This document shows positions 27,300 to 36,720 of a stretch of DNA of 64,000 nt, piece by piece. The notes under the pieces were generated by a model, which saw only the letters and a program-made list of their open reading frames with translations, was not told the origin of the DNA and searched no databases. Within the stretch, counting starts at the first letter, position 1; every line of letters starts with the position of its first letter. A program made the position numbers and the translations under genes. Source of the stretch: Streptomyces puniciscabiei (GTDB lineage: Bacteria > Actinomycetota > Actinomycetes > Streptomycetales > Streptomycetaceae); NCBI RefSeq assembly GCF_006715785.1, contig NZ_VFNX01000001.1, positions 1,378,501 through 1,442,500 on the forward strand, given 5' to 3'.

Positions 27300-29516
27300 T
27301 CACCCCTTTTCCAGGTACTGCTCCCTTTCCTCGTCCACAAGAGCGTCCAGGGCTGTGCGCAGGCCGGGAAGCCGCCGTAGCTCCGGATCCGCCGCCACCA
27401 CCGCCGTCGCCTCCTCTCTCGCCTCGGCGATGACCTCCTCGTCCTCGATGACCGCCAGGACGCGCAAGGAGGAACGGGCACCGGACTGGGCCTGGCCGAG
27501 GACATCGCCCTCGCGGCGCTGTTCGAGGTCGATGCGGGAGAGTTCGAAGCCGTCGAGGGTGGAGGCGACCGCGTTCAGGCGCTGGCGGGCCGCACTCGCC
27601 TCGGGCATCTCGGTGACCAGGAGGCACAGACCGGGGGCCGAGCCCCGGCCGACGCGGCCGCGGAGCTGGTGGAGCTGGGAGACACCGAAGCGGTCGGCGT
27701 CCATGATGACCATCACCGTGGCATTGGGGACGTTCACGCCGACCTCGATGACCGTGGTGGCGACCAGGACGTCGGTCTCGCCCGCGGCGAAGCGGCGCAT
27801 CACCGCGTCCTTGTCGTCGGGGTGCATTCGGCCGTGCAGGACCTCCACCCTCAGGCCCTGCAGGGGGCCGCGGCCCAGCTGGTCGGCGACGTCCAGGACC
27901 GCGAGCGGCGGGCGCTTCTCCGCCTCGTCCTCGGGCGACTTCTGCCTGGCCTTCCCGGGATCGTCCTCCTCGTCCCCGATCCGGGGGCAGACGACGTACG
28001 CCTGGTGGCCGCCTCCCACCTCCTCGCGGACCCGCTCCCAGGCCCGAGCGAGGAAGTGCGGCTTGTCGGCGGCGGGGACGACGTGGCTGGCGATCGGGGA
28101 GCGGCCGGCCGGGAGCTGGTCGAGGACGGAGGTCTCCAGGTCGCCGAAGACGGTCATGGCGACCGTGCGCGGGATCGGGGTGGCCGTCATGACCAGCAGG
28201 TGAGGAGGCTGCTTGCCCTTGCCGCGCAGGGCGTCGCGCTGCTCCACGCCGAAGCGGTGCTGCTCGTCGACCACGACCAGGCCGAGGTCGTGGAACTGGA
28301 CCTTGTCCTCGATCAGCGCGTGGGTGCCGATGACGATGCCGGCCTCGCCGGTGACCAGGTCCAGCAGCGCCTGGCGGCGGGCGGCGGCGCCCATGGAGCC
28401 GGTGAGCAGGACGACCTTGGTGGCGTGCTCGGCGCCGCCCAGCATGCCGCCCTCGGCCAGTTCGCCCATCATCTCGGTCACCGAGCGGTGGTGCTGCTGG
28501 GCGAGCACCTCGGTGGGCGCGAGCATGGCGGCCTGCCCGCCCGCGTCGACCACGGCGAGCATGGCGCGCAGGGCCACCATGGTCTTGCCCGAACCCACCT
28601 CGCCCTGCAGCAGGCGGTGCATCGGGTGCTCGGTCGCGAGGTCGTCGAAGATCTCCTTGGAGACCTTCTGCTGGCCCTCGGTGAGGGTGAAGGGCAGGCG
28701 GTCGTCGAAGGCGGCGAGGAGGCCGTCGGGTTTCGGGGTGCGGGGGACGGCCGGCAGCTGGGTGTCCGCGTAGCGGCGGCGGGCCAGGGCGACCTGGAGG
28801 ACGAAGGCCTCGTCCCACTTCAGCCGGGCGCGGGCGTCGGCGATGTCGGCCTTGGTGTGCGGGCGGTGGATCTTGAGGAGGGCCTCGGGGAGCGGGATCA
28901 GGCCGCGGCCCTCGCGCAGGGAGGGCGGCAGGGGGTCCAGGGCCTCCTGGGCGGTGGGCAGCACCGTCTGGACCGCCTTGCCGATCTTCCAGGACTCCAG
29001 CTTCGCGGTGGCCGGATAGATGGGGATCAGGGCGCCGGCCCAGCTCTCCACCGTTTCGTCACTGTCGCCGCGCAGCAACTCGTAGGCGGGGTGGGCGAGT
29101 TGGAGGCGGCGGTTGAAGACCGAGACCTTTCCGGCGAACATCGCGCGTGTGCCGGGCAGCAGCTCCTTGTGCGGCTTGTGGACGCCGTTGCCGAAGAAGA
29201 CCAGCTGGAGCCGGCCGCTGCCGTCGGTGATCGTGACCTCCAGGCGCTGGCCCTTGCCGCGCGGGGCCTTGGCGGAGGCGAAGGTGTGCAGGCGGGCGTC
29301 GGCCACCTGGGCGACCACCGTGACGTGTTCGTCCATGGGCAGCTCGGCGAGCTGGGTGAGCTGGCCGCGCTCCTCGTATCTGCGCGGGTAGTGGTGGAGG
29401 AGGTCGCCGACGGTGTGCAGGCCGAGGTGCTCGGCCATCACCTTCGCGGTGGCGGGGCCGAGCACCGACTTCAGTGGCTGCTTCAGTGGTTCGTCCAGTC
29501 CGTGCACGAGATCCAT
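27300..29516 (-). CDS. recG: ATP-dependent DNA helicase RecG
   Basis: 738 residues, remodelling stalled forks and Holliday junctions. An N-terminal wedge/OB domain is followed by two RecA-like lobes. Motifs: Walker A GEVGSGKT (about 300), DEQHRFG (about 415), TATPIPRT, and QLRGRVGRG. Start ATG 29516 (MDLVHGLDEPLK); ATG 29537 is possible and neither has a good ribosome-binding site. It heads the recG-rsmD-coaD block and diverges from the Hsp90 gene at 29683. Confidence 0.96.
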   Translation of the reverse strand: MDLVHGLDEPLKQPLKSVLGPATAKVMAEHLGLHTVGDLLHHYPRRYEERGQLTQLAELPMDEHVTVVAQVADARLHTFASAKAPRGKGQRLEVTITDGSGRLQLVFFGNGVHKPHKELLPGTRAMFAGKVSVFNRRLQLAHPAYELLRGDSDETVESWAGALIPIYPATAKLESWKIGKAVQTVLPTAQEALDPLPPSLREGRGLIPLPEALLKIHRPHTKADIADARARLKWDEAFVLQVALARRRYADTQLPAVPRTPKPDGLLAAFDDRLPFTLTEGQQKVSKEIFDDLATEHPMHRLLQGEVGSGKTMVALRAMLAVVDAGGQAAMLAPTEVLAQQHHRSVTEMMGELAEGGMLGGAEHATKVVLLTGSMGAAARRQALLDLVTGEAGIVIGTHALIEDKVQFHDLGLVVVDEQHRFGVEQRDALRGKGKQPPHLLVMTATPIPRTVAMTVFGDLETSVLDQLPAGRSPIASHVVPAADKPHFLARAWERVREEVGGGHQAYVVCPRIGDEEDDPGKARQKSPEDEAEKRPPLAVLDVADQLGRGPLQGLRVEVLHGRMHPDDKDAVMRRFAAGETDVLVATTVIEVGVNVPNATVMVIMDADRFGVSQLHQLRGRVGRGSAPGLCLLVTEMPEASAARQRLNAVASTLDGFELSRIDLEQRREGDVLGQAQSGARSSLRVLAVIEDEEVIAEAREEATAVVAADPELRRLPGLRTALDALVDEEREQYLEKG

Positions 29517-29682
29517 TGCACACCACGGCACCGACAATGCCGTATACGTCGTGGGAAAGTCCTGGTCGGGCGGGCTGTCCGGGCTCTAGGATGGCGCGCT
29601 CCGGCCATCCTTCGCGGTCACCGCCCCACCTGGGACCGCCCGACCCCGCGCCGATGCTCCTCCCCCCTCCGGCGCTGCGACG

Positions 29683-31515
29683 ATGGACTACCAGAGCTCA
29701 CAGACATCCCAGAGTCCCCACTCACCTCATACGTTCCAGGTCGACCTGCGCGGCCTGGTGGATCTGCTCTCCCATCACCTCTACTCCAGCCCCAAGGTCT
29801 ATCTGCGCGAGCTGCTGCAGAACGCCGTCGACGCCATCACGGCACGGCGGGGCGAGGAGCCCGGCGCCCCGGCCCGGGTGCGGCTGTACGCCGACGGCGG
29901 CGGTCTGCGCGTGGAGGACAGCGGGATCGGGCTCACCGAGGCGGACGTGCACGAACTGCTGGCCACCATCGGGCGCAGCTCCAAGCGGGCCGAGGGCGTG
30001 CAGGAGGCCCGTTCGGGCTTCCTCGGCCAGTTCGGCATCGGCCTGCTGGCCTGCTTCCTCGTCGCCGAGCGGATCCGGGTGGTCAGCCGCAGCGCCCGTA
30101 CGCCCGGCGCACCACCGGTGGAGTGGACGGCCCGCGACGACGGCTCGTACACCGTGCGGACCCTGCCCGGCTCCGCGCGGCCCGAGCCCGGTACGACCGT
30201 GCACCTGACCGCGCGGCCCGGGGCGGCCGAGTGGCTGGCACCGGAGCGGGTCCTGAGCCTGGCCCGCGACTTCGGCGCGCTGCTGCCGTACGACGTCCGG
30301 GTGGGCGAGGAGCCGGTCACCGATCTGCCCGCGCCCTGGGACCGGCCGTATCCGAGCCCTTCGAGCAGAAGGGTGGCGCTGGCCCGGCACTGTCACGAGC
30401 TGTTCGGGTTCACGCCGCTGGACTCGATCGACCTGGCCGTGCCGCTGGCCGGGATCCGCGGGGTGGCGTACGTGCTGCCGGCGGCCGTGAGTCCGGCCCA
30501 GCGGGCGACCCACCGGGTGCATCTGAAGGGCATGCTGCTGACCGAGCGGGCCGAACAGCTGCTGCCCGACTGGGCGTTCTTCGTGCGCTGCGTCCTGGAC
30601 ACCGACAGTCTGCGGCCGACCGCCTCGCGCGAGTCGCTGTACGAGGACGAGACGCTGGCCGCGGTGCGGGAGGCGCTCGGCGAAAGGATCCGCTCGTGGC
30701 TCACGGGGCTCGCCGCCGGTGATCCGGAGCGGCTGACGGCGTTCCTCGCCGTGCACCACCTGGGCGTGAAGTCCCTCGCCCGGCACGACCGCGACATGCT
30801 GCGCACGATGCTGCCCTGGCTGCCGTTCGAGACGACCGACGGGCAGCTGTCCCTGGAGGAGTTCGCGCAGCGGCACCCGGTGGTGCACTTCACCCGGACC
30901 GTCGAGGAGTACCGGCAGGTGGCGCCGATCGCCGCCGCTCAGGGCGTCGGCGTGGTCAACGGCGGCTACACGTACGACGGCGACCTGGTCGAGGCGCTGC
31001 CGTCGGTGCGGCCGGGGACGGTGGTCGCCGAGCTGGACGCGGACACCGTGACCGCGCACCTGGACGCGGTCGACCCGGGCGAGGAACTGGCCCTGTCCGG
31101 CTTCCTGGCGGCGGCGCGGGCGAGACTCGACCCGCTGGGCTGTGACGTCGTACTCCGGGCCTTCCATCCGCTGTCCGTGCCCGCGCTGCACCTGGACGAC
31201 CGGGCCGCGCGGCACGAGCAGGCCCGCGCGGCGGCCGAGGAGCAGGCCGACGACCTGTGGGCGGGCATCCTCGGCTCGCTGCGCGGCAGCGCCCCACGCG
31301 CGCGTCTGGTGCTCAACCACCTCAACCCGCTGGTGCGCAGGATCAGTTCGCTCAAGGACACGGAGCTGATCGGCACGGCCACCGAGTCGCTGTACGGGCA
31401 GGCCCTGCTGATGGCGCAGCGCCCGCTCAGGCCGGCGGACTCGGCGCTGCTGAACCGGGCGTTCATCGGCCTGCTGGAGTGGGCGACCCATGGGGAGACG
31501 ACGGGCGATGAGTGA
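29683..31515 (+). CDS. Hsp90-family chaperone homologue (HtpG-like)
   Basis: A 610-residue GHKL ATPase of the Hsp90 type, diverged from classical HtpG. N-domain nucleotide motifs are intact: ELLQNAVDAI (43-52, Asn47), EDSGIGLTEADVHELL (78-93), GFLGQFGIGLLACFLVAE (112-129). In the middle domain, LRPTASRESLYED (about 310) keeps the SRE catalytic-arginine segment. The N-terminal lid is shorter and the C-terminal dimerisation domain is divergent. ATG 29683. The stop overlaps the start of the TPR gene by 8 bases, so the two are translationally coupled and probably act together. The sequence does not reveal the client. Confidence 0.9.
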   Translation: MDYQSSQTSQSPHSPHTFQVDLRGLVDLLSHHLYSSPKVYLRELLQNAVDAITARRGEEPGAPARVRLYADGGGLRVEDSGIGLTEADVHELLATIGRSSKRAEGVQEARSGFLGQFGIGLLACFLVAERIRVVSRSARTPGAPPVEWTARDDGSYTVRTLPGSARPEPGTTVHLTARPGAAEWLAPERVLSLARDFGALLPYDVRVGEEPVTDLPAPWDRPYPSPSSRRVALARHCHELFGFTPLDSIDLAVPLAGIRGVAYVLPAAVSPAQRATHRVHLKGMLLTERAEQLLPDWAFFVRCVLDTDSLRPTASRESLYEDETLAAVREALGERIRSWLTGLAAGDPERLTAFLAVHHLGVKSLARHDRDMLRTMLPWLPFETTDGQLSLEEFAQRHPVVHFTRTVEEYRQVAPIAAAQGVGVVNGGYTYDGDLVEALPSVRPGTVVAELDADTVTAHLDAVDPGEELALSGFLAAARARLDPLGCDVVLRAFHPLSVPALHLDDRAARHEQARAAAEEQADDLWAGILGSLRGSAPRARLVLNHLNPLVRRISSLKDTELIGTATESLYGQALLMAQRPLRPADSALLNRAFIGLLEWATHGETTGDE

Positions 31516-34500
31516 GATCACGGACTTCGACGCGCTGCGCCGGGCGATGGCGGAGAACTCCGAGCAGCCCGAGGGCCCGGCCCGCAACGCGCGCGCGGAG
31601 CAGCTGCTGGCCGCGGCCGAGGGCCTCGGCATCCCGCCGGCCGTCATCGAGGCGCTCGGGCACCAGCTGAAGGTCTACAACTACAGCTCCGAGAAGGACA
31701 AGATGTTCGTCCCCTTCGCGCGGCTGCTGCGCATGTGGGACGAACGGCCCGAGGACTTCGACGCGTACGAGGCGCACTCGCTGCACTGGGTCTTCAAGTG
31801 GATGTCGGCGGGCATGCTGGACCAGCCGCACGTCCCGCTCGCCTCGATCGAGAAGTGGCTCGGCGAGATGGCGCACCGCTACCGGCTCGCCGGGTACTCC
31901 GAACGCGCCGTGCGCGGCGCCGAGTTCAGCGTGGCCGCGCACGTGGGGGACCTGGCGCGCGCGCAGCGGGCCTACGCGGCGTGGCTCGCCGCGGACCGTG
32001 ACGAGATGGCCGACTGTCACGCCTGCGAGCTGCACGGGCAGGGCTTCTGGCAGGCCGAGCTCGGGCGGGACGAGGAAGCGCTGGAGTTGTGGCGGCCGGT
32101 GCTGGAGGGCGAGTTCGCCTGCGCGCACGAACCGCACACCGTGCTGGCCTCCTCGCTCGCCCCGCTGCTGCGCCTGGGCCGCTTGGACGAGGCCCGCGCG
32201 CACCACCTGCGGGGCTTCCGCCTCGTCCGCCCGATGGAGTCGATGCGCAGCGCGTACGCGGACCATGTGGAGTTCTGCGCGCTGACCGGGAACGAGGCAC
32301 GCGCTCTGGAACTGCTCGCCGAACGGCCCGCGTACTTCACGGACACCGGGCACCCGCGCAGCCGGCTGGAGTTCATGGCCGTGGTGACGCTGCTGATGGA
32401 CCGGCTGAACGGGCTGGGCCTCGGCGGGCAGCGGGTGCCGGGGCCGGCCGGGCGGACCTGGACGGCGGGCGAACTCGCCGCCCACGCGCGCGAGGAGACG
32501 CTGGAACTGGCCGAGCGGTTCGACCGGCGCAACGGCACGTCGCACGTCGGCGACCGGGCACGCGCGCGTATGGACCAGCGGCCGCTGGTGGAGCGCCTGC
32601 CGCTGGGCGTGCGGACGGTGCGCCCGGCGCCCGTCCCGGTCGCCGCGCCCCCGCCGCCCCAGGCGCACGGCGAGCCCGGCCTGGCGGCCCTGCTCGCCGA
32701 GGCCCGGCGGTTGTCGGAGACCCTGCAGCCGCACGCCTTGGAGGCGTGGGCCGCCGTCGCGCGGGCCGCGCGCGGTGCGGAGCTGGGGCCGCGTGACCGC
32801 GCGGAGCTCGCCGACCACGAGGCGATGAGCCGCGGCCCCGCGGGCATCGAGCTGTTCGAGCAGGCGGCGGCCCTGTACGCGGAGGCGGGCGACCCCGGCG
32901 AGGCCCTGGCGGCACGCGCGCGTGGAGCGTACGTCCGCGCGCTGACGGGCGAGGTGGACCCGGCGCTGGCGACGGTCACCGGCCTGTACGACGAGGCGCT
33001 CGCCCTGTACGCCGAGGAGGCCACCGGCGTACGCCAGACGGCGTCGGTGCTGATCAGCCGGGCCCGGATCCTGATGCGGTGCGTGCACGCGGGGGCGCCC
33101 GTCCTGCGGGACCCGGCACCGGGCACACCGGACCCGGGCTTTCCCGCGCCCCCGGCACCGGCCGTGCCGGACGCGGGTGATTCCGCTGCCGAAGCCCTGG
33201 TGACGGACACAACGGCCACGGACGGTCGCGCACCCTCGGGCCGCGTGCCGGACGCCCCGGTCACCGACGCGACGGCCTCGGACGGACCGGGGTGCGAGGG
33301 CCTGTTGCCAGGCGGTGCGGTCTCCGGCGAGGCAGCCGCCCCGAGGCCGGGGGTCGAGGACGGCGTGCCAGGCGGGGAGGTGCCGGAGCCGGCTGCGGAT
33401 GTGCTCGCGCGGGCCGAGCAGGCCGTGCGGGAGGTGCTGGCGCTGGTCGACGGGCGGGCCGGGGACGATGTGCGGCTGGCCGCCCGGGCCGCGGAGGCGC
33501 GGGCGATGCTCGCCGAGCTGGCGGAGCTGCGCGGGGACGCCGGACGGGCCGCGGAGCTGTTCCGGCGGGCGGCCGACGCTTATGTGAGCGCCGGGCTGCC
33601 CTGGTTCGCCGTGGAGTACGAGGTGCGGGTCGCCGCGCTGGCCCATCAGGCGGGCGACGCGGCCGGGGCCGAGCGGGCGCTGCGGGCCGCGCTGGAGCAC
33701 GGCGGGCCGTACGTGGAGCCGGTCGGGCGGGCCCAGCTGCATCTGCAGCTCGCCGAGGTCCTCGGCGCCCGGGGTGAGGTGGCCGAGGCCGCCGAGCACG
33801 CGCTGGAGGCCGCGCACTGGGCCGACGAGGCGGGCGAGAGCGGCACGCTGGGCGCCTGGGCGCGGCAGCAGCTGGGCGGGTGCCTGCTGCGGCAGGGCCG
33901 GTACGCCGAGGCCGCCGAGGTGCTGGAGTCGGCGCTGGCCGACCTGTCCGACGAGACGCACGGGGACGGGGCCGTCGTACAGGCGCGGTGGTGGCTCGGC
34001 GACTGCCTGAGCGAGCTGGGCGACCACCGCGCGGCCGCCGAGCACAGGCTGCGGGCGGCCGAGACCGCCCGGCACTGGCCCGAGCAGCAGGACCACGCCA
34101 CGCTCGCCCACCTCGCCGCCGAGTCACTGAGCAAGGCCGGTCTGCTGCAGGAGGCGGACCGGGCTTACGTCCGGGCCGGTGAGCTCTGGCGCGGACTGGG
34201 CAACCACGCCTTCCTCGTGCGCTCGCTGCGCGCCCGCGGCTGGCTGGCGCTGCGCGGGGACGGCGGGGCGCAGGGCGCACGGGAGCTGATGACGGAGGCG
34301 GTGCGCGCGTGCGAGCGGGCGCGGGGGGACGCGGCCGACCCGGTGTCCCGGGAACAGCTCACGGAGGAACTCGCCCACACCCACCGCCAGTTCGGCGATC
34401 TGCTGGCCCGCGCGGCGATCGAGCAGGACGGGGATGACGAGGAGGACGAGGAGCGGGCGCAGGGCGAAGACGGCGTGATCCAGGACCTGTTCGAGGCGGC

Positions 34501-34738
34501 GCTGGTCCAGATGGACCGGGCGGCCGCGCTGTTCGGCGCGCTGGGCGCGGACGGGCTGCACGACCGTACCGGTGCCGAACTGGCCGCCGGGCGGCTGGAG
34601 GCCGGCCTCGGCCGGCCCGCCGAGGCGGCGGCACGTGCGCGTGCCGTGCTCACGGCCTACGAAGGTGCCGGCGACGAGGACGAGACCGTGCGGGCGCGGC
34701 GGGCGGAGGCCAACGGGATGCTCGGGCCCGGACAGTGA
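31508..34738 (+). CDS. Large TPR-repeat protein coupled to Hsp90 homologue
   Basis: 1076 residues from ATG 31508 (MSEITDFDALRRAM), overlapping the Hsp90 stop. It is almost entirely alpha-helical tetratricopeptide repeats. The N-terminal block (about 1-520) includes KVYNYSSEKDKMFVPFARLLRMWDE, a linker of low complexity rich in Pro/Ala/Gly/Asp lies at about 528-630, and a second TPR block (about 630-1076) holds the repeats RAAELFRRAADAYVSAGLP, HALEAAHWADEAGE and ADRAYVRAGELWR. There is no transmembrane segment or enzymatic motif. TPR proteins commonly bind Hsp90 C-termini, so a dedicated co-chaperone or scaffold is the natural inference. Confidence 0.85.
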   Translation: MSEITDFDALRRAMAENSEQPEGPARNARAEQLLAAAEGLGIPPAVIEALGHQLKVYNYSSEKDKMFVPFARLLRMWDERPEDFDAYEAHSLHWVFKWMSAGMLDQPHVPLASIEKWLGEMAHRYRLAGYSERAVRGAEFSVAAHVGDLARAQRAYAAWLAADRDEMADCHACELHGQGFWQAELGRDEEALELWRPVLEGEFACAHEPHTVLASSLAPLLRLGRLDEARAHHLRGFRLVRPMESMRSAYADHVEFCALTGNEARALELLAERPAYFTDTGHPRSRLEFMAVVTLLMDRLNGLGLGGQRVPGPAGRTWTAGELAAHAREETLELAERFDRRNGTSHVGDRARARMDQRPLVERLPLGVRTVRPAPVPVAAPPPPQAHGEPGLAALLAEARRLSETLQPHALEAWAAVARAARGAELGPRDRAELADHEAMSRGPAGIELFEQAAALYAEAGDPGEALAARARGAYVRALTGEVDPALATVTGLYDEALALYAEEATGVRQTASVLISRARILMRCVHAGAPVLRDPAPGTPDPGFPAPPAPAVPDAGDSAAEALVTDTTATDGRAPSGRVPDAPVTDATASDGPGCEGLLPGGAVSGEAAAPRPGVEDGVPGGEVPEPAADVLARAEQAVREVLALVDGRAGDDVRLAARAAEARAMLAELAELRGDAGRAAELFRRAADAYVSAGLPWFAVEYEVRVAALAHQAGDAAGAERALRAALEHGGPYVEPVGRAQLHLQLAEVLGARGEVAEAAEHALEAAHWADEAGESGTLGAWARQQLGGCLLRQGRYAEAAEVLESALADLSDETHGDGAVVQARWWLGDCLSELGDHRAAAEHRLRAAETARHWPEQQDHATLAHLAAESLSKAGLLQEADRAYVRAGELWRGLGNHAFLVRSLRARGWLALRGDGGAQGARELMTEAVRACERARGDAADPVSREQLTEELAHTHRQFGDLLARAAIEQDGDDEEDEERAQGEDGVIQDLFEAALVQMDRAAALFGALGADGLHDRTGAELAAGRLEAGLGRPAEAAARARAVLTAYEGAGDEDETVRARRAEANGMLGPGQ

Positions 34739-34747
34739 GGCGCGGGG

Positions 34748-36460
34748 TCACTCCACGCCGATGAGCAGCAGGGTCCCCTGCCGGCCGCCCCGGTACACGA
34801 CCGTGTCCACGGCGAGGTAGGACTCCCGTACGCGGCCCTGAAGGTGCTCGGCGACGGCCTCGGGGGCCTCGTCGCCGACGACGAGGGTGACCAGCTCGCC
34901 GCCGGCCTGGAGCATGCGGTCCAGGACGGTCGCGGCGGTGGCGGTCACCTCCTCGCCGATCACCGCCACGTCGCCGTCGATCAGCCCGAGGACGTCACCG
35001 GCCTGGCAGATGCCGGCCGTCGTCCACGACTGGCGTTCGGCGACGACGACCTCGGCGTACCGGGTGGCGCCTGCCGCCGCCGTCATCTGGACGACGTCCT
35101 CGTCGAACCGGCGCCCCGGCTCGTGCACGGCGAGCGCGGCGATGCCCTGGACCGCCGACCGGGTCGGGATCAGGGCCACCCGGATGCCCTCGGTGCGGGC
35201 CTGCTCGGCGGCCGCAGCGGCCGTGTGGCGCAGCTCGGCGTCGTTGGGCAGCAGGACCACCTCGCGCGCGTGGGCCCGCCGTACGGCCTGCACCAGTTCC
35301 CCGCTGGCGGGCGGCTCCCCCGGGCGCGCGAGGACGGTCGTGGCGCCCGCTTCGGTGTACAGCCCGGCCAGGCCCTCGCCCGGTACGACGGCGACGACGG
35401 CCCGCTGGGCGCGCTCGCGCGGGGGCCGCTCGCCGCCGGTGTGCACGTCCCCGAGCCCGAAGTGGGTGATCCGGATCCGGTACGGCCGCCCGGCCTCCAC
35501 GCCCGCCTCCACGGCGGCGCCCGCGTCGTCGACGTGCACATGGACGTTCCACAGCCCGTCGCCGCCGACCACGACCAGGGACTCGCCGAGCGCGTCGAGG
35601 CGCTCCCGCAGCCGGGCCACGGCCGCGTCGCCGGCCTCCAGGAGATAGATCACCTCGTAGGCGGGCCCACCGTCCTCGGCGCCCCCGGCGCACAGTCCGG
35701 CGTCCGTGGCGGCCACGCACGCGTGCCCCCCGGAAACCGCCTCGGGGCCCTGCTCGCCCTCCCCCGCCGCCGCACGGCTCTCCCGTGCTCCCGGAGCCTC
35801 CCGCACCGCCTCACCCGTGAACGCCTCCACCAGCGCCCCCAGCACCGCCACGAGCCCGCGGCCGCCCGCGTCGACCACCCCGGCCCGGCCGAGTACGGGC
35901 AGCTGTCCCGGAGTGGCCGCCAGGGCCGTCCGGGCGCCCTCGTAGGCGGCGCGCGCGACCGTGCCGCAGTCGCCCTCGGCCGCCTCGGCGGCCTCGGCGG
36001 CGGCCGAGGCGACGGTCAGCACGGTGCCCTCGACGGGGTGGGCCACGGCCTGCCGGGCGGAGTCGGCGGCCCGCCGCAGCGCCAGCCGCAGCGCCGCGCC
36101 GTCGCCGTGGGACGCCGCGCCGCCCTCCGCGAGCACCTGCGCCATGCCGCGCAGCAGCTGCGCCAGGATCGTCCCGGAGTTGCCGCGGGCCCCGATGAGC
36201 GCCCCGTGGGCCATCGCGTGCACGGTGTCCGCCAGGGAGGGCTCCCCGGCACCCGTCTCGTACCCGGCGAACACCGCCTCCACGGCCGTGGCCGCCGATT
36301 CCAGGGTGAGGTAGAGGTTCGTCCCGGTGTCGCCGTCGGCCACCGGATAGACGTTGATCGCGTCGATCTCCTCGCGCGCGCGTCCGAGCGCTCCGAGCGC
36401 CAGACCGCACCAGGTGCGCACCGCGAGAGCATCGAGCAACGTCTGCGGCACCTGCGCCAC
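34748..36460 (-). CDS. DAK2-domain phosphotransfer protein (FakA/YloV-like)
   Basis: 570 residues from GTG 36460 (VAQVPQTLLDALAV), with GGGAGG five bases upstream. The N-terminal DhaL-type domain holds the phosphate/Mg-binding loop NVYPVADGDTGTNLYLT (about 33-49) and HGALIGARGNSGTILAQLLRG. The C-terminal region (about 300-570) resembles the YloV/FakA family, with FGLGDVHTGG and an acidic D/E-rich tail. In Firmicutes FakA phosphorylates fatty acids with DegV-type FakB; no degV gene is adjacent, so a Streptomyces role is inferred only. The gene precedes rpmB divergently, as in Bacillus and mycobacteria. Confidence 0.85.
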   Translation of the reverse strand: MAQVPQTLLDALAVRTWCGLALGALGRAREEIDAINVYPVADGDTGTNLYLTLESAATAVEAVFAGYETGAGEPSLADTVHAMAHGALIGARGNSGTILAQLLRGMAQVLAEGGAASHGDGAALRLALRRAADSARQAVAHPVEGTVLTVASAAAEAAEAAEGDCGTVARAAYEGARTALAATPGQLPVLGRAGVVDAGGRGLVAVLGALVEAFTGEAVREAPGARESRAAAGEGEQGPEAVSGGHACVAATDAGLCAGGAEDGGPAYEVIYLLEAGDAAVARLRERLDALGESLVVVGGDGLWNVHVHVDDAGAAVEAGVEAGRPYRIRITHFGLGDVHTGGERPPRERAQRAVVAVVPGEGLAGLYTEAGATTVLARPGEPPASGELVQAVRRAHAREVVLLPNDAELRHTAAAAAEQARTEGIRVALIPTRSAVQGIAALAVHEPGRRFDEDVVQMTAAAGATRYAEVVVAERQSWTTAGICQAGDVLGLIDGDVAVIGEEVTATAATVLDRMLQAGGELVTLVVGDEAPEAVAEHLQGRVRESYLAVDTVVYRGGRQGTLLLIGVE

Positions 36461-36720
36461 CTGCGCCTCCCTGACCTGCTGGCTGGACGTGGACGCAGCG
36501 TAGACCCCGAAGTGGTGTCCACCGGAAGAGGGCCGGGAGCGGTGCCCTGAGCTGCCATGGTAGTTTCGTTCTACGGGCGCAGCCGTTGTATGCTGCTCCG
36601 GTTGCCCGATCCGATCGGGCCGTTCCCCTGGCAACGCCACTCAAGATCTCAGGTCTTAGGATCTCGATCCCGGCATGCCGGGATTAACCGTAAGTGCATC
36701 TGAAGTCTTTGGAGTGACCC

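Follow-up and report, generated by a model that had tools for sequence, protein, structure and literature searches.

Organization of the gene pair

We analyzed a stretch of 64,000 nucleotides from Streptomyces puniciscabiei (assembly GCF_006715785.1, contig NZ_VFNX01000001.1, positions 1,378,501 to 1,442,500), referred to here as the window, in which a gene for an Hsp90 protein is followed directly by a gene for a tetratricopeptide repeat (TPR) protein, its partner. The coordinates are collected in Table 1. The two open reading frames share eight bases, as an earlier reading of the letters alone (the sequence-only reading) had stated, and this overlap suggests that the genes are translationally coupled. 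An alternative in-frame ATG at 31490 would give a partner of 1082 residues; the motif GGGGAGA at 31493-31499, as read from the sequence, has a favorable position for the start at 31508. The pair sits isolated between two opposed neighbors, recG and the YloV/DAK2 gene.

Table 1. Features of the Hsp90-TPR locus in the window
Feature	Position	Strand	Details
Hsp90 of the NF010683 (PRK14083) family	29683..31515	+	610 residues, ATG start; NF010683 858.5 bits
TPR partner protein	31508..34738	+	1076 residues; TPR_12 over cut-off, best stretch 742-811
Partner conserved core, residues 1-385	31508..32662	+	all-helical and TPR-like (predicted); C170, C173, C205, FDxRNGT motif
Partner variable C-terminal extension with TPR repeats	32663..34738	+	few conserved columns; TPR_12 at 742-811
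Overlap of the Hsp90 and TPR genes, 8 bases	31508..31515	+	open reading frame coordinates
recG, flank outside the unit	27300..29537	-	NCBIfam RecG, 1159 bits
DAK2/YloV protein, flank outside the unit	34748..36640	-	TIGR03599, 447.1 bits

The Hsp90 protein

The window Hsp90 scored over the curated cut-off of NF010683 (455 bits) and below the equivalog cut-off of canonical HtpG (NF003555, 172.8 bits vs. 371), which by these model scores places it in a lineage distinct from canonical HtpG. The nucleotide-binding motifs that the sequence-only reading had named, Asn47, DSGIG (79-83) and GQFGIG (115-120), were all present, and its catalytic-Arg segment was located as R316-E317 in PTASRE. In an alignment of 19 rows from three phyla, the window row included, E43, N47, D79, G81, G83, G115, G118, G120 and R316-E317 were invariant. 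The roles of these GHKL-fold ATPase residues (Glu, Asn, DxGxG and GxxGxG) and of the catalytic Arg were assigned after yeast Hsp90; in the window protein they are intact.

The C-terminal half had been described as divergent, and the profile alignment to HtpG showed that it is nevertheless still Hsp90. The family profile aligned with canonical HtpG over 574 columns at a probability of 100%, and when the part from residue 400 on was used alone, 76 end columns matched the HtpG C-terminus at a probability of 72%. N-terminal, middle and C-terminal regions were all present, the last with helices and strands in the AlphaFold model, and the protein probably dimerizes. The model had a mean predicted local distance difference test score (pLDDT) of 85.9 and a predicted template modeling score (pTM) of 0.77. 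Its low-confidence stretches were residues 1-14, 100-110 (by position the likely nucleotide lid), 311-320 (around the catalytic Arg) and 606-610. The closest solved relatives by sequence were TRAP1 and HtpG. No MEEVD tail was found: the window Hsp90 ends in HGETTGDE, and the tails were not conserved across the 19 rows.

Further genes or matches of this kind were found in the same genome. A second NF010683 gene, 62% identical to the window Hsp90, lies close to one end of contig 1, and a second, diverged Hsp90-TPR pair is present. Canonical HtpG is encoded on contig 4 (778.2 bits with the NF003555 model). A partial HtpG-like ATPase match was also seen on contig 1 at 3019646-3020233, within an open frame of 1066 residues.

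Linkage of the two genes across genomes

The linkage was examined in 393 genomes drawn from the class, with Hsp90 accepted at E up to 1e-120 and the partner core at E up to 1e-8. Hsp90 was found in 52 genomes and the core in 57; both were present in 51, the core only in 6, Hsp90 only in 1 and neither in 335 (Fisher test, 4e-56, uncorrected for relatedness). The other kind of gene lay within 500 bases at 60 of the 61 Hsp90 places and at 60 of the 69 core places. In a set of 57 distinct neighborhoods (60 requested, less three repeats), which overlaps the class draw, a partner stood beside Hsp90 on the same strand in 56, 55 of them recognized by phmmer and one (L035) by blastp. The exception, L022, is also the sole Hsp90 of the class draw without a partner; its branch of 1.52 was among the longest (median 0.27). 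In the best 80 of 556 relatives from named genomes, every locus (80/80) had the core on the strand of the Hsp90 gene and no more than 1500 bases away.

In contrast, a profile search of the same flank at canonical HtpG loci of the class found the partner core at none of 25. At five further HtpG genes no annotated TPR protein came next downstream, three of these neighbors being annotated only as hypothetical or uncharacterized. The sequence-only reading had held that the pairing would be refuted if the two genes were unlinked in most genomes; the genomes showed the opposite (60/61 and 80/80 vs. 0/25 for HtpG), and the counts from the class draw and the named genomes support a dedicated rather than an incidental Hsp90-TPR pair.

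The spacing of the two genes was measured as well. In the 70 of 80 named loci that could be measured (ten were missed by the gene finder and left out), the partner began downstream at -14 to +55 bases, and once at +492 (L139). An overlap of 4 bases was the commonest arrangement, at 40 of these 70 loci and at 21 of 51 in the 57-neighborhood set, where four Hsp90 genes were missed by the gene finder and L022 and L060 gave no call. At L069 the gap was 1211 bases, and the TPR frame is split there.

Shared descent and changing surroundings

The genes around the pair varied by lineage while the pair persisted. Copies of the window type are flanked by recG and YloV, those of a Micromonospora group by TetR-like and carboxylase-like genes, and those of an Actinomadura group by malate dehydrogenase-, isocitrate dehydrogenase- and galactokinase-like genes, the names in the latter two groups coming from reading the sequences. 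The distance matrices of the Hsp90 and core trees correlated at 0.82 over 121 pairs, while the highest value in 1000 permutations was 0.14. Two pairs were listed in each of six genomes, five of which could be scored; for 10 of the 10 members in these five, the nearest relatives of both Hsp90 and TPR protein belonged to other genomes rather than to the sister pair. The pairs thus descended together.

No third gene constant across lineages was found among the 22 largest neighbor clusters listed (133 loci). In 14 loci (e.g. L040, 11901-12887) the second (type B) pair is immediately preceded by a gene for a protein of 328 residues. The one such protein scanned gave no Pfam match. This gene is a possible third component of the type B copy.

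The TPR partner protein

The first 350 or so residues of the partner were the part most conserved among relatives, and few conserved columns followed after about residue 370. Residues 1-385 alone gave no Pfam match up to E 0.1; at that threshold TPR_12 matches were found in 14 of 50 core rows, the window's own core not among them. In the AlphaFold model the core is predicted to fold as helical hairpins (pLDDT 95.2, pTM 0.90). A profile search of solved structures returned no convincing relative by sequence: the best match was Heter-Zn2-HEHE-22A (E 0.00025), going by its name a designed protein, and the remaining matches were above 0.09. Of 121 linked rows, 116 retained the cysteine C170, 116 retained C173 and 117 retained C205; all three were also present in 3 of 3 Bacillota rows and 8 of 8 rows from cores without a neighboring Hsp90 (orphan cores).

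Long open frames, for example of 1446, 1476, 1637 and 1667 residues, had raised the suspicion of Hsp90-TPR fusions. This was rejected because the TPR gene was separate in all four loci fetched (L052, L057, L058 and L059), and we put the long frames in relatives down to high GC content. A tandem core, with two TPR-core matches in one open frame, was seen behind a diverged Hsp90 (L035, genome G515, contig 1, 3675469-3677646).

Two orphan cores (L161 and L162) had no Hsp90 nearby. Three (L163-L165) lay beside a gene with a YbjN domain, and the TPR protein scanned, that of L163, has a C-terminal YbjN domain too, which suggests YbjN as an alternative partner for the core. At L166 the orphan core lies beside a gene for a small cyclic-nucleotide-binding protein, followed by a gene with a cyclase domain; the small gene beside the core at L167 resembles it by eye. 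At L168 (7986-10814) the TPR gene stands at the recG site and Hsp90 is gone, another Hsp90 pair being present elsewhere in that genome. The core thus appears to be a more general adaptor; at most of the sites seen, though not at every one, it has paired with Hsp90.

Distribution and other phyla

At the level of the genus, 125 of 199 genomes carried an NF010683 member over the cut-off; in the draws from the class and the phylum the counts were 52 of 393 and 12 of 296, respectively. Two of 14 named control genomes, those of Corynebacterium glutamicum and Deinobacterium chartae, carried one as well. Outside Actinomycetota, Paenibacillus cellulosilyticus has the core alone directly behind Hsp90 (hhalign probability 99.95%); in Listeria monocytogenes a core copy stands directly behind Hsp90 (99.8%), followed by a second copy that also aligns. 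The Bacillota partners seen were 320-354 residues long, without a C-terminal extension. The Hsp90 rows of Actinomycetota and Bacillota formed a clade apart from HtpG with 100/100 support.

A second Hsp90 type was found in Xanthomonas, Pseudomonas aeruginosa, Salmonella and Escherichia coli. The three proteins scanned scored 277-293 bits with NF010683, below its cut-off and above their own HtpG scores, and the placement of this type in the tree was weakly supported (69/40). Directly behind it, in 5 of 5 records, lies a gene for a protein of 764-774 residues; the four that were aligned are related to each other. We take PA1069 to be the P. aeruginosa partner of this related but different Hsp90 type. 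The TPR matches of the three proteobacterial partners scanned were all below the Pfam cut-offs, and the partner from Xanthomonas carries a TPR protein annotation. Homology of these partners to the actinobacterial core was not supported (profile probability 5% and 12.6%), and they were treated as a separate family. A Nonomuraea relative of the proteobacterial partner had no adjoining Hsp90. The second-type Hsp90 was present in 245 of 5426 E. coli genomes, always on the chromosome, and in both records opened it occupied the same site between fdhD and yiiG.

Mobile DNA was also searched. Hsp90 copies occurred on Streptomyces plasmid records, the closest named match being from Streptomyces sp. BHT-5-2 (80.5% identity). 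Viral contigs gave no match at the sensitivity of that scan. In a phage collection, 12 of 50,697 records matched at E 1e-10: one unverified fecal contig (44% identity, 77% GC), two Listeria records of 1.5-1.6 kb (32-35%), one Salmonella genome contig and eight weaker matches (22-30%), three of which were htpG-like by annotation or unannotated. We take most of these to be bacterial DNA. A plasmid of Pseudanabaena (L078, 6932-9565) encodes an Hsp90-like protein of 877 residues with a weak, sub-cut-off TIR-type match near its C-terminus, and the gene lies among TIR, TPR, vWA and AAA genes; this protein may be an Hsp90 that has been recruited into a conflict system.

Discussion

We consider it reasonably probable, at roughly 60%, that the locus is a two-gene unit of an ATP-driven Hsp90 and an obligate, dedicated TPR protein acting as its co-chaperone or client adaptor. 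In this unit the first protein would be an ATP-driven Hsp90 of a non-HtpG lineage. The core of about 350 residues would serve a need common to all these Hsp90s, by binding Hsp90 in a physical complex, by setting its ATPase cycle, or both, and the variable C-terminal repeats of the actinomycete partners may choose the clients. The linkage is near-obligate from the side of Hsp90 and freer from that of the TPR protein, and therefore the Hsp90 appears to be the more dependent member of the two. Such a dependence fits an obligate co-chaperone or adaptor; it also fits a dedicated client.

Several findings weigh against a unit of this kind. At 9 of the 69 core places no Hsp90 was linked; eight of them are orphans and the ninth is an additional core that follows a linked one, so that the core can exist without an NF010683 Hsp90. 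The three cysteines were considered as a mark of Hsp90 docking and rejected, since all eight orphan rows keep them and they are not specific to Hsp90. Shared species history explains part of the agreement between the two trees, but not the behavior of the sister pairs. Although the long branch of L022 might be taken for the trace of a lost partner, the Listeria Hsp90, which has partners, is also long-branched (1.27), and a long branch is an unsure sign of such a loss. The AlphaFold predictions are of single chains, for Hsp90 and for the core alike. All 12 genomes of the phylum draw that carry the family belong to the same class, and its wider breadth rests on few records.

That the TPR protein is instead a dedicated client and itself performs the biological function (e.g. 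as a signaling scaffold) seems unlikely to us, though it draws on the same asymmetry: Hsp90 is nearly never found without the core, yet 6 of the 57 core genomes have the core without Hsp90. The L168 locus likewise retained the TPR gene and lost the Hsp90 one, and orphan cores adjoin other regulatory genes. However, the Bacillota partner is merely a domain of 320-354 residues, hardly a difficult fold, and the core is predicted by AlphaFold to be compact, with confidence. These small stand-alone cores speak for a co-chaperone or adaptor over a client. A general module for heat or proteotoxic stress, in effect a second HtpG, is improbable. Membership in the Hsp90 family agrees with it, and the sequence-only reading had offered a stress module as one option, but a scan of the window that allowed up to 3 mismatches to the consensus gave no HAIR or CIRCE operator. 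A canonical HtpG is also present in the genome, and HtpG loci have no partner. Furthermore, one P. aeruginosa study gives log2 values at elevated temperature of -1.98 for PA1069, which belongs to the other Hsp90 type, and +2.83 for htpG (PMC4957987). The stress option thus found no support. PA1069 is also listed in a table of proteins from surface-adhering cells (PMC5541441). A mention of PA1068 in PMC9995270 was rejected as a gene name, being a strain number.

An anti-phage or other conflict system with the Hsp90-type ATPase as its switch is very improbable in our judgment. The distribution is patchy, as the genus counts and the E. coli counts of the related type both show; the Hsp90 ATPase domain, but no other part, gave weak PADLOC matches to TmtA and to a type II restriction enzyme; and the surroundings of the Pseudanabaena relative and the copies on Streptomyces plasmid records point the same way. 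In the DefensePredictor paper, a figure legend lists TPR and HATPase among the domains of predicted systems and leaves unstated whether they belong to the same system (PMC13092281). The partner itself matched none of the PADLOC families, however, the viral contigs were negative, the pairs occupy lineage-specific sites beside housekeeping genes, and in the two E. coli records the related type stands at the same fdhD-yiiG site.

The family to which the window Hsp90 belongs has a name in NF010683, titled 'HSP90 family protein', a title that states homology only and names no partner. The sequence-only reading spoke of an undescribed system; this stands in so far as the family has no described function, and does not stand for the Hsp90 family as such, which had already been named. 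An Hsp90 lineage apart from Group A, called Group C (Chen et al., 2006) or hsp90C (Press et al., 2013), is described from Actinobacteria, Firmicutes and gamma-proteobacteria in these papers (PMC1525184, PMC3708813), which also place the two HTPG genes of S. coelicolor in separate groups; the second encodes 615 residues. The window Hsp90 lineage is probably this one, set beside Group C by description rather than by sequence, and the clade of Actinomycetota and Bacillota apart from HtpG would fit it. In the main texts of both papers, TPR and operon are not mentioned. Press et al. (2013) state that no obligate Hsp90 co-chaperones have been identified in bacteria and that hsp90B and hsp90C paralogues were excluded from the analysis (PMC3708813), and a 2021 paper states that bacteria have no apparent orthologues of Hop, Aha1 and p23 (PMC8082187). 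No publication on a bacterial Hsp90-TPR pair was among the matches listed in the open-access literature; the passages available of PMC11687934 contain nothing on a bacterial Hsp90 partner, and the main text of CORGIAS (PMC12699329) mentions none of the four terms searched.

Two known systems bear comparison with the pair. Canonical HtpG aligns with the window Hsp90 over its whole length and shares its ATPase residues; it differs in that the window protein scores under the HtpG cut-off and HtpG loci lack the TPR partner. Eukaryotic Hsp90 works with the TPR co-chaperones Hop, FKBP51/52 and Unc45. The likeness to the window pair is one of working, since both consist of an Hsp90 and a TPR partner. 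However, the bacterial core corresponds to no Pfam family of its own, sequence comparison gave it no convincing relative among solved structures, and because the window Hsp90 has no MEEVD, the eukaryotic mode of docking on that tail is impossible for the partner. What is new here is that a bacterial Hsp90 is paired with a TPR protein although the MEEVD link is missing; the Hsp90 family itself was already known.

A broader proposal, which we hold as tentative and rather doubtful, is that the non-HtpG lineage of bacterial Hsp90 cannot work without a dedicated partner encoded by the gene behind it, in Actinomycetota and Bacillota with the core described here and in Proteobacteria from a second TPR-like family, and that the three cysteines form a metal or redox site controlling the partner's state. 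If this is true, the partnership of Hsp90 with TPR proteins would be older than the MEEVD-based one of eukaryotes, or would have evolved independently. The near-constant adjacency of the two genes suggests that actinomycetes possess a helper protein dedicated to this Hsp90, an arrangement most familiar from more complex cells. The constant TPR partner offers a specific candidate for an Hsp90 co-chaperone in bacteria, and the host is genetically tractable, with both genes open to deletion. The age and origin of the Hsp90-TPR partnership thereby become testable.

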